A stretch of 55,584 nt of DNA from assembly GCF_016861785.1 (NCBI RefSeq), contig NZ_BOLS01000017.1, forward strand, positions 1-55,584, in the 5' to 3' direction. The translations under genes and the position numbers were made by a program. The DNA is from Lacticaseibacillus mingshuiensis (GTDB lineage: Bacteria > Bacillota > Bacilli > Lactobacillales > Lactobacillaceae). The notes under the pieces are model-generated. The model did no database searches. It saw only the letters and a program-made list of their open reading frames with translations, and was not told the DNA's origin. Positions 23,001 through 26,775 of this stretch are shown in pieces; the stretch's first letter is position 1; every line of letters starts with the position of its first letter.

Positions 23001-23186
23001 TTGGCAAAAGACGTCATTACAGGTCGTCACACCACGTTTGGCAACAAGCGCTCCCATGCGCTTAACTCAAGCCGACGTTCTTGGAAGGCAAACCTGCAGA
23101 AGGTCCGTATCTTGATCGACGGCAAACCAAAGCGCGTTTGGGTATCTGCCCGCGCGCTGAAGTCCGGCAAAGTGACTCGGGTCTAA
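23001..23186 (+). CDS. rpmB: 50S ribosomal protein L28
   Basis: A 61-residue ribosomal protein with the L28 hallmarks [20 protein letters not shown] and the C-terminus [16 protein letters not shown]. The start is TTG at 23001, 8 nt after AAGGAGG; no ATG is available in frame. It is one of the few plus-strand genes, divergent from yloU and convergent with thiN across the repeat region. A clear terminator follows. Confidence 0.97.
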
Positions 23187-23202: not shown

Positions 23203-23233
23203 GCGGTGTCCCCAGTGGACGCCGCTTTTTTTG
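23203..23233 (+). terminator. terminator of rpmB
   Basis: A 9-bp stem (GCGGTGTCC/GGACGCCGC, one G-T pair), 5-nt loop, then seven T on the plus strand. It insulates the repeat region from rpmB transcription. Confidence 0.9.
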
Positions 23234-23270: not shown

Positions 23271-23423
23271 TGGGATGGTGTCACACGATGATGGCAAGCG
23301 CATCTGGGCAGCCGGACTCAGGGTCCACAAATTTGCCGCTTTTGGTTGCGAAAGACAACATCCGCGGTCCCAGGGTCCGCACATCCCCAAATAACTGCCG
23401 AAAACTAATGTCACGCCATCACA
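23271..23423. repeat. solitary palindromic element E1 with bordering 15-mers
   Basis: The core is an inverted repeat (left arm 23312-23328, right arm 23361-23380) whose arms CGGACTCAGGGTCC and CGGTCCCAGGGTCCG are each imperfect palindromes; the spacer is about 32 nt. It is the same type as the second inverted repeat of the tandem array. The borders are two degenerate copies of the TGTGATGnCATCACA palindrome (23271-23285 and 23409-23423) in opposite orientation. Another copy of the 15-mer, TGTCACCGCATCACA, follows at 23461-23475. Confidence 0.6.
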
Positions 23424-23512
23424 CTGATTGTTGCCACACAACCCGGGGCCCTTGAAATAGTGTCACCGCATCACACTAGTTTGGGGTGCCAACACACTGG
23501 GCGGCAAACGCT

Positions 23513-23581
23513 GCGATCTCTGAGACCGCGACTTTGTGTTTTTCGGCGAGAAATATCGATATTCCCGGTCTCAGGGATCGC
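23513..23581. repeat. solitary palindromic element E2
   Basis: Left arm GCGATCTCTGAGACCGC (23513-23529) and right arm CGGTCTCAGGGATCGC (23566-23581) pair over 16 bp with a single G-T pair across a 36-nt spacer. Each arm is itself nearly palindromic. It is the same type as the first inverted repeat of the tandem array. Confidence 0.65.
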
Positions 23582-23615
23582 AAGCAGTGACGGTTTTTGC
23601 AAAGTGGCTATTCCA

Positions 23616-23688
23616 CCGCGTACTCAGGGAATACGGCTTACTTAATTTGAGTGCCAAAAAGACAGAACGGCATACTCCGAGGATGCGG
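23616..23688. repeat. solitary palindromic element E3
   Basis: Imperfect inverted repeat with left arm at 23616-23637 (CCGCGTACTCAGGGAATACG) and right arm at 23668-23688 (CGGCATACTCCGAGGATGCG), spacer 30 nt. The arms share the CTCnGRG core with the other elements. Confidence 0.5.
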
Positions 23689-23730
23689 ATCTCTTGTGAG
23701 CCGCACACCCGAAGTTTCCGCTTTGAAGGC

Positions 23731-23839
23731 GTGTGATGGCATCACATTTCTTTCCATCCGCGCGCCCCGGGGATGGCGCCTCTTGCCAAGCCCCGCGCAA
23801 CTGAAAATTCGATGGAAAAGATGTGTGATGCCATCCCAC
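23731..23839. repeat. long inverted repeat E4 built on the 15-mer palindrome
   Basis: About 28-bp arms (23731-23758 and 23811-23839), each starting from a TGTGATGnCATCACA-type palindrome: TGTGATGGCATCACA at 23732 is perfect, TGTGATGCCATCCCA at 23824 has one change. The arms also share the CTTTCCATC/GATGGAAAAG part. The 52-nt interior is very GC-rich. Confidence 0.65.
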
Positions 23840-24236
23840 ATCTTTATCCCCACATCCCCAGCGCTCCGCGTGAGACCGGGTTGGTGCCCAGAAATTAAAG
23901 GCCAACAACTCTATCAGTGCTTGATTGGGCACAACTCTCTCACGCACATTCTACGACATTTTCGCGACCAATCCATCAATTTCAATACGAAAACGACCTT
24001 CTACTGCGCTTCTGAGACGTTTCATCGGGCATTAAAAACCGCGGTCTATCAACGTTTTCCATAAACTGGTCAGAATCTGTCGAACACAACAAATAGTCTC
24101 GGTCACAGGAATGCCGTCAATTCAACGTTTTGATTGTCGAGAATCGAGCGACGATCGAGGTAGTTCGGCTGGCTTACCGAATAGACAAGTCCCGGCTAAC
24201 TGCACGCCCCTGGGGAATTGAAACTCGCGTACCCTG
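23840..24236. other. unassigned stretch in the repeat region
   Basis: About 400 bp between E4 and E5. I see no convincing gene or long repeat, only short self-complementary pieces (for example around TCGAGAATCGAGCGACGATC at 24138). It may hold decayed elements of the same family. Confidence 0.4.
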
Positions 24237-24297
24237 AGTATGCCTATTATCATCTTTCGAGGGAAACCAGCGACCTCCGCATACCCGGGGTATGGGC
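24237..24297. repeat. solitary palindromic element E5
   Basis: Left arm GCGTACCCTGAGTATGCC (24237-24254 region start 24237) and right arm GCATACCCGGGGTATGGGC (24279-24297). The arms are inverted copies and each is palindromic around CCCnGRG. It directly abuts the first unit of the tandem array. Confidence 0.5.
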
Positions 24298-24299
24298 TT

Positions 24300-25917
24300 G
24301 CAGTCTCTGAGAATGCAAGTGTTGAGAAATATGGCCTGAAAAGACAAATCGGCAATCTCCCAGATCCCGACGAGTCACTCGTTTCACATCAACCGGACTC
24401 ACGGTCCGCAAATGTGCTTCTTTTTCTCGTGAAATTCGACATCCGCGGTCCCGTGGTCCGCAAAGAGTGCCAGTCTCAGACGCTCGATATCAAGTTTTGT
24501 GACGGGGTGACACGAATGTGGAGGCCACGATCGGATTCGCGATCTCCGAGACTGCAAATTGCGTGATTCCTACGCAGAAAACCCCAAATCGGCAATCTCG
24601 GAGATCGCGCCGGGTCATTCATTTCACATCAACCGGACTCACGGTCCACAAAATTGCTTCTTTTCCTCGTGAATCTCAAAATCCGCAGTCCCGTGGTCCG
24701 CAAAGATTGCCAGTCCCAGACGCTCGATATAAGTTTTGTGACGGGGTGACACCAATGTGGATGGCACAGTCCAAGACGGGCAATCTCTGAGACTGCAAAT
24801 CACCTGATTTCTACGCAGAAAAACCAAATCGGCAATCTCCGATATCGCAACGGGTCACTATTTCACATCAACCGGACTCACGGTCCACAAAATTGCTTTT
24901 TTTCCTCGTGAATCTCAAAATCCGCGGTCCCATGGTCCGCAAAGATTGCCAGGCCTCAGACGCTCGATATCAAGTTTTGTGACGGGGTGACACCAATGTG
25001 GAAGTCACAGTCCGGCCGTACGATCTCTGAGACTGCAAATCGCGTGATTCCTGCGCAGAAAAACCAAATCGGCAATCTCCGATATCGCAACGGGTCACTC
25101 ATTTCACATCAACCGGACTCACATTCCATAAAAATGCTTCTTTCCCTCGTGAAATTCGACATCCGCGGTCCCGTGGTCCGCAAAGATTGCCAGGCCTCAG
25201 ACGCTCGATATCAAGTTTTGTGACGGGGTGACACCAATGTGGAGGTCACAGTCCGGGCGTGCAATCTCTGGGACTGCAAATTGCGTATTTCCTAATCAGA
25301 AAAACCAAATCGTCAATCTCCGATATCGCAACGAGTCACCCATTTCACATCAACCGGACTCACGGTCCACAAAATTACTTTTTTTCCTCGTGAATCTCAA
25401 AATCCGCGGTCCCGTGGTCCGCAAAGATTGCCAGGCCTCAGACGCTCGATATCAAGTTTTGTGACGGGGTGACACCAATGTGGAGGTCACAGTCCGGCCC
25501 TACGATCTCTGAGACTGCAAATTGCGTGATTCCTAGGCAGAAAAACCAAATCGGCAATCTCCGAGATCGCGACGGATCACTCAGTTCACATCAACCGGGC
25601 TCACGGTCCACAAAATTACTTTTTTCCTCGTGAATCTCAAAATCCGCGGTCCCGTGGTCTGCAAAGATTGCCAGTCTCAGACGCTGAATATCAAGTTTTG
25701 TGACGGGGTGACACCAATGTGGATGTCACAGCCCCCGGCCCTACGATCTCTGAGACTGCAAATTGCGTGATTCCTAGGCAGAAAAACCAAATCGGCAATC
25801 TCCGAGATTGCACTGGGACAAAAGCCCCATATCGGCCAGACTCACGGTCCGCAAATATGGCTCTTTTGTCTGTGAATCTAAAAATCCGCGTTCCCGTGGT
25901 CCGCAAAGATTGCCACG
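24300..25917. repeat. tandem array of seven 239-241 bp palindrome-rich units
   Basis: Units begin at 24300, 24539, 24780, 25020, 25261, 25502 and 25743. Each contains: (i) an inverted repeat with arms GATCTCTGAGACTGC and GGCAATCTCCGAGATCGC about 40 nt apart (13-bp perfect in unit 2); (ii) a second inverted repeat with arms CGGACTCACGGTCC and GCGGTCCCGTGGTCCGC about 33 nt apart; (iii) a GTCTCAGAC or CCTCAGACGCTC stretch; (iv) GTGACGGGGTGACAC, at 24501, 24740, 24981, 25222, 25463 and 25702. Neighbouring units share long identical blocks; the first and last units are the most diverged. The mostly 241-bp period shifts reading frame every unit, arguing against coding function. The array lies between convergent rpmB and thiN, behind both terminators. 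Confidence 0.92.
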
Positions 25918-25940
25918 CCCACATTGCATGGATAAATTGT

Positions 25941-26030
25941 TGTGATGGTATCACACACATATTCCTTTATCCCGCGGACGCCTATTCCTGCCCCCCTGAT
26001 TCCGCAGAAAAGTAGTGTGACGCCATCACA
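25941..26030. repeat. inverted pair of 15-mer palindromes closing the array
   Basis: TGTGATGGTATCACA (25941-25955) and TGTGACGCCATCACA (26016-26030) lie in inverted orientation, with extra pairing inside between CCGCGGA and TCCGCAG. The layout matches element E4 on the other side of the array. Confidence 0.6.
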
Positions 26031-26063: not shown

Positions 26064-26089
26064 CAAAAAAAGCGCTCATCACTGAGCGC
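26064..26089 (-). terminator. terminator of thiN
   Basis: GCGCTCA/TGAGCGC stem with a TCAC-type loop and seven T on the minus strand. It insulates the repeat region from the thiN operon. Confidence 0.9.
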
Positions 26090-26100
26090 CCCTGTCATGC

Positions 26101-26775
26101 TTAGTTATCCCGAGTCTGCCCAATGCGATCGCGGCTGCGAATCACAGCGACCACCCCTTCTGAAAAGCTGACACGAACTGGCGCCTCGCCCAAAAATTCG
26201 TTGGAGGCCCAGGAAAACGGTCGGTCGTTGGTCCACGCCGGCAACGCGTATTTGGCACCAGCAATTGTGAGATCCCGGACCGCCGTTAAGTTGGCGATGC
26301 CGAGATACCGAAACTGTGGACGCGGCTGAAGTAGATGCGCGCCAGGCAACAAAAAGTCGATCCAATTCTGTTGATCAACGAAGCTCACCCGTTCGGCGTA
26401 AGGCTCAAACCGCGGCTGGGTCAAAAGCCACAAATTGGACAGTAAATGATCGAGTCGGCCGCCTGTCCCGCCAAGCACCAGGACCCGCGTCGCATGAAAT
26501 TGCTCAAATGCCACGCGCAACCCCATTTCGGTGTCGGTCTCATCTTTTTCTGGAGAGACGCGGGCCACGTCGGCAACCGCCGCGCGGACTTTCGCGTATT
26601 CCGCTTCCGTTTGCGAATCAAAGTCGCCAACCGCAAACGTAGGTGTCACCCCTGCTTCAAGCAAGGTCAACGTGCCGCGGTCGACGCCGGCCCAGGTTGG
26701 CGCCAGACTCGACCAGTCAGTCGGCAAAAGTGCGCGCGGACCACCGACCATTAGCCCAAGCAACGACTTTTCCAT
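26101..26775 (-). CDS. thiN: thiamine pyrophosphokinase
   Basis: Transfers pyrophosphate from ATP to thiamine to give the cofactor TPP. The 224-residue protein has the motifs VGDFDS near residue 49, KDETDTEMGL near 75 and GGTGGRLDHLL near 100, typical of the N-terminal catalytic domain, and a C-terminal beta domain (RDLTIAGAKYALP; SNEFLGEAPVRVSFSEG). The ATG overlaps the rpe stop by one base. It is the last gene of the coaBC-to-thiN gene string; rpe-thiN after rsgA is the usual order. Confidence 0.94.
   Translation of the reverse strand: MEKSLLGLMVGGPRALLPTDWSSLAPTWAGVDRGTLTLLEAGVTPTFAVGDFDSQTEAEYAKVRAAVADVARVSPEKDETDTEMGLRVAFEQFHATRVLVLGGTGGRLDHLLSNLWLLTQPRFEPYAERVSFVDQQNWIDFLLPGAHLLQPRPQFRYLGIANLTAVRDLTIAGAKYALPAWTNDRPFSWASNEFLGEAPVRVSFSEGVVAVIRSRDRIGQTRDN

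Follow-up and report, generated by a model that had tools for sequence, protein, structure and literature searches.

Mosaic arrays of 15-bp palindromes, mostly in helical phase, as candidate operators of lineage-specific TetR-like proteins in two Lacticaseibacillus species

Judged by analogy, the repeats analysed here have two nearest counterparts among described systems, sopC as an array and the BIMEs as a repeat family. According to the excerpts of the published accounts on which we draw here and throughout, sopC/parS of the F plasmid comprises twelve 43-bp tandem repeats with 16-bp inverted repeats that are bound by a dimer (PMC6238139), and BIME/REP elements are mosaics of regularly spaced, alternating intergenic palindromes (PMC2817692). 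Several other proteins are described as acting at scattered chromosomal sites. SlmA, a TetR-family dimer, has palindromic sites dispersed over the chromosome and can spread on DNA (PMC4726725, PMC6657595); RefZ, a Firmicute TetR-family protein of Bacillus, has nearly palindromic sites (RBMs) at conserved chromosomal positions (PMC6657595); Noc, of the ParB family, has ~70 sites (NBSs) that are scattered 14-bp palindromes (PMC4726725); and MatP has matS, a 13-bp odd palindrome, GTGACRNYGTCAC, present at 23 sites that average 35 kb apart in Ter (PMC6907758).

The array that we describe lies in the window, a 55,584-nucleotide stretch of Lacticaseibacillus mingshuiensis contig NZ_BOLS01000017.1, where two genes that we take, from reading their sequences, to be rpmB-like and thiN-like converge on the gap that it occupies, with a terminator-like site behind each. 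The original prediction of seven tandem units is borne out by TRF (period 241, 6.6 copies, 87% matches at 24338-25919) and by a unit HMM, which places the starts at 24300, 24539, 24780, 25021, 25261, 25503 and 25744, all within 1 bp of those first given, and runs the last unit to 25962. Boxes, the palindromes of classes A, B, b and C that make up the units, extend further, from ~23271 to 26030. The features of the gap and its borders are these:

23001..23186, + strand: left neighbour gene, 61 aa, rpmB-like; detected by tblastn at 20 of 30 examined thiN loci
23203..23225, + strand: terminator-like stem-loop after the left gene (terminator scan)
23313..23379, no strand: outlying B-B box pair, 52 bp apart (box scan)
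23514..23580, no strand: outlying A-A box pair, 52 bp apart (box scan)
23732..23746, no strand: perfect C box TGTGATGGCATCACA (exact pattern and box scan)
23824..23838, no strand: C box bordering the core gap on its left (box scan)
23883..24195, + strand: non-coding core element, full-length in six arrays of this genome and at one sister-species locus
24228..24294, no strand: b-b box pair, 52 bp apart (box scan)
24300..24538, + strand: repeat unit 1, A-A-B-B-C, with the first A box too degenerate to call (HMM 24300-24532)
24539..24779, + strand: repeat unit 2 (HMM 24539-24772; boxes called)
24780..25020, + strand: repeat unit 3 (HMM 24780-25013; boxes called)
25021..25260, + strand: repeat unit 4 (HMM 25021-25254; boxes called)
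25261..25502, + strand: repeat unit 5 (HMM 25261-25495; boxes called)
25503..25743, + strand: repeat unit 6 (HMM 25503-25733; boxes called)
25744..25962, + strand: repeat unit 7 (unit HMM), whose terminal C box, 25941-25955, differs
26016..26030, no strand: outlying C box (exact pattern and box scan)
26068..26093, - strand: terminator-like stem-loop after the right gene (terminator scan)
26101..26775, - strand: right neighbour gene, 224 aa, thiN-like, with matches in 30 of 30 genus genomes

Each unit contains two inverted pairs with arms that are themselves palindromes, just as the original prediction had described; the pairs are A-A and B-B, with centres 52-53 bp apart, and some of the boxes are degenerate. 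The conserved sequence that it had assigned to every unit, TGTGACGGGGTGACA, is present in units 1-6, and unit 7 terminates in TGTGATGGTATCACA instead. Identity to unit 4 is 85-92% in five units and 79% in the last, incomplete one, and the orthologous array of the sister species, L. yichunensis, has eight units; the divergence of the units and the eight-unit orthologue together make it unlikely that the array is an artefact of assembly. Neither of the outcomes that the original prediction had named as refuting it was observed: the locus is not a single unit, and Rfam gave no match to a described RNA family. Nor is the locus protein-coding or a CRISPR, as had been stated at the outset: its spacers are homologous between units, and no Cas protein was among the flanking proteins scanned. 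Beyond what had been noticed before, the boxes continue past the units, a 313-bp core lies among them, and the array is one of many such loci. Elsewhere in the genus (for example at L097, L092 and L096), 20 of 30 loci have both genes: the rpmB-thiN gap measures 59-449 bp at 16 of them and 685-1282 bp at the other 4. One of these four long gaps has a G+C content of 0.72, and those that were read resemble accessory coding sequence.

The basic element of the arrays is a 15-bp odd-centred palindrome, not the 241-bp unit. All four box classes (A, B, b and C) have consensuses of one design, YGxxMYS-n-SRKxxCR with AT-rich shoulders, the whole site reading roughly AAATnn-YGxxMYS-n-SRKxxCR-nnATTT. Alignments resolve modules A and B into inverted pairs of these palindromes, and module scans reveal arrays that are mosaics of A, B and C, with ABC repeats of ~241 bp, AC repeats of ~195 bp and BC repeats of ~140 bp. 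We examined 14 arrays in the window's genome (G000, 2.76 Mb). A scan that allowed at most 3 mismatches, required at least 4 of 7 complementary pairs and made no use of spacing called 482 boxes in the 34.1 kb of array regions versus 80 in 148.9 kb of flanks, the consensuses having been derived from the same arrays that were scanned. A count free of any consensus gave 55 perfect 15-bp odd palindromes in 34,121 bp of array versus 9 in 149,167 bp of flank, a ~27-fold higher density, and even 14-bp palindromes showed no enrichment in these regions (3 in array, 13 in flank). The density of boxes in the 14 arrays relative to flanking DNA excludes a chance origin. The scattered Noc sites, as described, differ in being even palindromes without phased arrays and in belonging to another protein family. 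C boxes resemble matS; exact matS occurs nowhere in the 14 arrays, and a search of three genomes for a MatP homologue (PF06303) found none, with E. coli positive as a control. Membership of the MatP/matS system was rejected on these two results.

Boxes are placed mostly 52 bp apart, or five helical turns, and otherwise mostly 41-43 bp apart, or four turns. Between same-class neighbours less than 70 bp apart, the distance is exactly 52 bp in 42 of 45 cases for A, 67 of 75 for B and 17 of 21 for b. Among box distances of up to 130 bp (n = 451), 80% deviate by no more than 1.5 bp from a multiple of 10.5 bp, compared with 29% expected, and periodicity is strongest at 10.6 bp (R = 0.67; maximum 0.13 in a jittered null). 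Taking one value per locus and link type leaves R at 0.59 (n = 191), and removing the 49-56-bp class leaves the best period at 10.5 bp (R = 0.42, n = 174); in the 87 distances that belong to neither main distance class, the peak is at 14.2 bp (R = 0.49) and R(10.5) is 0.23. Eleven regions of L. yichunensis give R(10.5) = 0.79 and a best period of 10.3 bp (n = 191). The ruler is most evident at array L076, where 24 consecutive B boxes follow one another at 52/53 bp over spacers of 37-38 nt that average 45-55% identity, and at its L. yichunensis counterpart, L077, where 37 B boxes keep the same ruler over two empty positions. In the sister species' version of the window array, A-A, B-B and B-C links are nearly all 52 bp, A-B links 40-41 bp and C-A links 43-44 bp. 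Phasing is not universal: arrays L043, L038 and L044 are weakly phased (R = 0.23, 0.45 and 0.50), and the C boxes 5' of tetR-2, a gene described below, lie mostly 36-41 bp apart (L043 4189-4765), ~3.5-4 turns, unlike the 52-bp ruler.

This geometry has several implications. First, dimers on sites 52 bp or 41-43 bp apart would be aligned along the same side of the helix, where they might bind jointly, and we regard it as very likely that the arrays are bound by some protein. The suggestion that the locus is an array of binding sites for an oligomeric protein is now well supported, by dyads that are mostly in phase, by boxes better conserved than spacers and by single-class rows beside TetR-like genes. 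Second, the arrays resemble sopC, in which inverted-repeat sites are likewise arranged in tandem at 43 bp, about four helical turns; as described, sopC differs in being a single plasmid centromere with one class of site for a ParB-family protein. Third, spacing that tracks the helix repeat might suit sites of a topological kind, bound for instance by DNA gyrase or a histone-like protein and placed where supercoils have to be absorbed, and BIME-2 elements bind gyrase (PMC2817692). Such sites would not be expected to fall into four specific palindrome classes, two of them adjoining TetR-like genes, and the arrays lack general A/T phasing (L021 and L024 show some at 10.5 bp), for which reason intrinsic curvature was rejected as an explanation. 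Moreover, the arrays occur in two species only, whereas gyrase is, to our knowledge, universal; of all the readings weighed here, a topological role seems the hardest to credit.

Several searches bear on this restriction. Unit 4 matches at 38 places in G000 and 23 in L. yichunensis (G027), the sole matching genome of the 29 others from the genus. The exact C box, TGTGAYGGYRTCACA, occurs 85 times in G000 and 22 times in G027, with eight single matches spread over seven of the other 28 genus genomes, and its reversed control pattern is absent from all 30. Module models (R1 and R2) were built from every second module above the score cut, 40 of 80 and 45 of 90. Among at most 150 candidates scored per genome in the 30 genus genomes, the A-module model matches G000 (103), L. 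yichunensis (69) and, weakly, G003 (E = 4.9e-4), and the B-module model matches the first two alone (145, close to the 150 scored, and 98); neither unit 4 nor the B model matches in the 28 others. Under stricter filters, with at most 12 candidates scored, the same two among 397 family genomes have the A module. A pattern based on the array period also matched one Flavobacteriales contig (L074), in which a module search found none. An ancestral C box in other species was rejected, four of the eight outside loci lying in one shared, conserved, coding-looking sequence; two more lie in a second shared sequence. A plasmid or phage origin was likewise rejected on database searches: nothing in plasmids matched the core, the window array, the L076 array or either TetR-like protein, nothing in phages matched the core or TetR-2, and nothing in viral contigs matched the B-pair pattern or the TetR alignment.

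Between the two species, arrays are related site by site. Correspondence was assigned by matching the lengths of flanking ORFs and was checked by sequence for the window and L076. Across 86 A modules, copies in one array share an identity of 0.82, those at corresponding sites of the two species 0.81 and those from different sites 0.69, and a module's nearest neighbour lies in the same array in 42 cases, at the same site of the other species in 25 and elsewhere in 19. These identities and nearest neighbours indicate that the arrays are largely older than the species split, have stayed in place and have been homogenised locally. What separates the two species' versions of the window array is one whole 240-bp unit and a number of indels of 1-4 bp. 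Site divergence in this array is 7.8% in boxes, 9.3% in the core, 12.6% in spacers and 14.9% in shoulders. Fourfold sites of the three genes neighbouring the array differ by 20.0% and those of tetR-1 by 10.7%, so the neutral yardstick varies, and the shoulders, no better conserved than spacers, show no constraint at this scale. If confirmed, the arrays would be satellite-like DNA evolving alongside its regulators in two species, with 28 genus relatives giving no match.

This kinship bears on the possibility that the arrays are selfish repeats of the BIME/REP kind, non-autonomous, multiplied by a transposase and now mosaic and inert. Regular extragenic palindromes in alternating orientation and mosaic units are BIME features (PMC2817692) that the arrays share, and G000 has three Y1_Tnp matches, with others in G027. 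The one inspected is, by eye, a TnpA-like gene beside a TnpB-like gene, as in IS200/IS605, and we recognised no RAYT or REP-type transposase in that inspection of one of the three. REP elements, as described, carry a GTAG/CGTC tag, whereas the boxes are four 15-bp odd palindromes whose consensuses contain neither GTAG nor CGTC over 45 columns, and REP/BIME was rejected as the family on this ground. Arrays that resemble those at the same sites of the sister species also sit poorly with inert selfish copies, a reading we therefore consider improbable. The original prediction had offered an amplified family of palindromic mobile elements; as a present activity, this is not supported, A identity being 0.81 at the same site versus 0.69 at other sites.

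Two arrays stand out by their genes. TetR-1, a 223-residue TetR-like protein (L076 725-1396), borders the pure-B array, and its paralogue TetR-2 (32% identity; L043 4903-5544) is encoded inside array L043. In both species, tetR-1 is preceded by B boxes at -71, -123, -175 and -227 relative to its ORF start, and 14 C boxes, with no box of another class, stretch from -674 to -138 of tetR-2. Single-class runs reach 24 B boxes in L076 and 16 C boxes in L043 (14 before and 2 after tetR-2); no run in the other 12 arrays exceeds 3, and label shuffles produced any run of at least 13 in 1 of 20,000. Farther along, L043 contains b and B boxes as well. As with TetR-type operators, a regulator gene adjoins the sites, and dyad sites lie in its own upstream region. 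Assignment to the TetR family is suggested by a TetR profile that matched 16 PDB sequences (E = 2.4e-4 to 0.009), 15 of them named as transcriptional regulators or repressors, most of the TetR family. Pfam TetR_N scores (19.6 and 23.8) fall just under the 24-bit cut-off for both proteins, and Foldseek matches of the TetR-1 model are TetR-like, all with E above 0.02; the AlphaFold model itself is too poor to use (pLDDT 50).

We propose that the arrays are amplified operators of lineage-specific TetR-type dimers that form nucleoprotein platforms, the account that we consider probable from the sequences at hand, and that the two TetR-like proteins are, with similar or slightly greater likelihood, the ones that bind them. 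B boxes would most likely be operators of TetR-1 and C boxes of TetR-2, with the sites amplified into mosaic arrays that could load protein at no fewer than 14 chromosomal positions. The C-terminal sequence GLRQPRRP is identical in the two proteins, was found on no other ORF in the loci scanned, and may contact a common partner or the shoulders. No third paralogue was detected in the 30 genus genomes with TetR-1 as query (E <= 0.001), nor any protein for the A and b boxes in ~340 kb of further stretches. Strong TetR-1 matches are confined to 2 of the 30 genomes, G000 and G027 (98% identity), with a weak match in G023 (E = 2.3e-4), and all five differences between the species fall at residues 88-140, outside the N-terminal DNA-binding region. 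With TetR-1 as query, TetR-2 was not found in L. yichunensis, where a deficit of C boxes is suggestive: 22 exact C boxes against 85, compared with 69 A-model matches against 103 (Fisher, 7e-4 against A-model and 4e-4 against B-model matches, among at most 150 candidates scored per genome). We treat this deficit as weak evidence, because the model counts come from no more than 150 scored candidates and arrays interrupt the assembly of L. yichunensis. Paralogous regulators with related classes of site beside them would present a case of recent divergence in DNA-binding specificity.

The same arrangement could serve regulation alone. If both TetR-like proteins are autoregulated, as boxes of their own class directly upstream of both genes would lead one to expect, then the hundreds of boxes elsewhere would titrate them as decoys, setting or buffering protein level with no structural role. 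A sponge of this kind, taken alone, leaves unexplained why spacing is fixed over diverged spacers and why the arrays of the two species are related site by site, and we think it rather unlikely as the whole account.

The inverted pairs also raise the question of whether transcribed hairpins, terminators or cruciforms, rather than bound proteins, account for the arrays, and a cruciform-forming locus was among the first proposals. Unit 4 folds no better than its shuffles, whether treated as + strand DNA or as RNA from either strand, and class A shows no compensatory covariation, its pairing being equal within and between boxes; pointing the other way, unit 2 forms a long A hairpin by minimum energy (computed without shuffles). 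Class B covaries between boxes to a degree reached in 0 of 500 shuffles, as a stem would also be expected to do, and this is partly a b/B class switch. In the window gap, terminator-like sites number 9 versus 3.4 in shuffles, the extra ones mostly in A modules, and promoter-like sites number 2, equal to the shuffle mean of 2.0. Arrays sit alike between converging genes (the window) and diverging ones (NFACT and DegV genes, L021). Rfam returned tRNAs alone at curated score for the window and seven other loci, and at E <= 1 four matches for L040, all far under their cut-offs. RNA structure as the main explanation was rejected on folding, Rfam and class A covariation, class B covariation notwithstanding; RNA or single-strand structure appears very unlikely to underlie the arrays, and the cruciform proposal is not supported by unit 4 or by class A.

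More broadly, amplified TetR operators loaded with protein could mark or organise the chromosome much as SlmA, RefZ or Noc do, a role that we consider possible and somewhat doubtful. Ten of the 14 arrays were placed on G019, a relative with a complete genome and one of the four compared, at 0.63-0.72, 1.43-1.74 and 2.62-2.67 Mb (the L026 query piece was weak and was dropped; L022, L024 and L076 were left out). Their clustering there is significant (p = 0.004). On G019 the sign of the GC skew switches between 1.35 and 1.65 Mb; with the terminus assumed to be at 1.475 Mb, 5 of the 10 mapped arrays are no more than 0.3 Mb away from it (post hoc p = 0.03). SlmA resembles the proposed system in being a TetR-family dimer with dispersed palindromic sites; as described, its sites (SBSs) number ~24-52 and are underrepresented in Ter, whereas here there are hundreds of phased boxes in four classes, and half of the mapped arrays are near the inferred terminus, in the gene order of the relative, where an SlmA-like depletion is thus not seen. 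RefZ, in the account excerpted, has five RBMs in all, which are not arrayed and are linked to sporulation. Arrays on contig C1 lie 23-66 kb apart, a spacing similar to that described for matS. A more ambitious version, in which a TetR family with class-specific sites and the shared GLRQPRRP tail links arrays into a centromere- or satellite-like scaffold, is equally tentative. Laboratory arrays of engineered tetO sites act in a comparable way. If our proposal holds, phased operator arrays with named candidate binders would offer a testable system for chromosome marking and folding.

Arrays are accompanied by further conserved sequence. The core (23883-24195, 313 bp in the window) occurs at its full ~310 bp in six G000 arrays, within a box-free gap of ~400-450 bp; one full copy occurs in L. 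yichunensis, and nine incomplete ones were also noted. Copies of the window core in L024, L026, L027, L039, L040 and L048 share strongly conserved blocks. The core is non-coding, all six reading frames being interrupted by stops in each of the seven copies, is not clearly structured (double changes in 7 of 38 predicted pairs) and matched nothing in Rfam, plasmid or phage searches. A second interspersed repeat of ~1-2 kb, with a C box at its edge and, by eye, a core-like stretch, is found in G000 (L041 4030-4951, L045 2152-3788 and L047 4639-6464) and G027 (L066 and L060); the L047 copy has internal repeats ~271 and 921 bp apart. The IS200/IS605-type element of the inspected transposase lies at L078 166-1753 in G000, its TnpA- and TnpB-like ORFs recognised by eye. 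Finally, candidate defence genes lie beside three arrays (L022 5794-10790, L044 7043-7957 and L076 2742-4277), where PADLOC matches are JetB/C/D-like (Wadjet), PDC-S42 and PDC-M09B.
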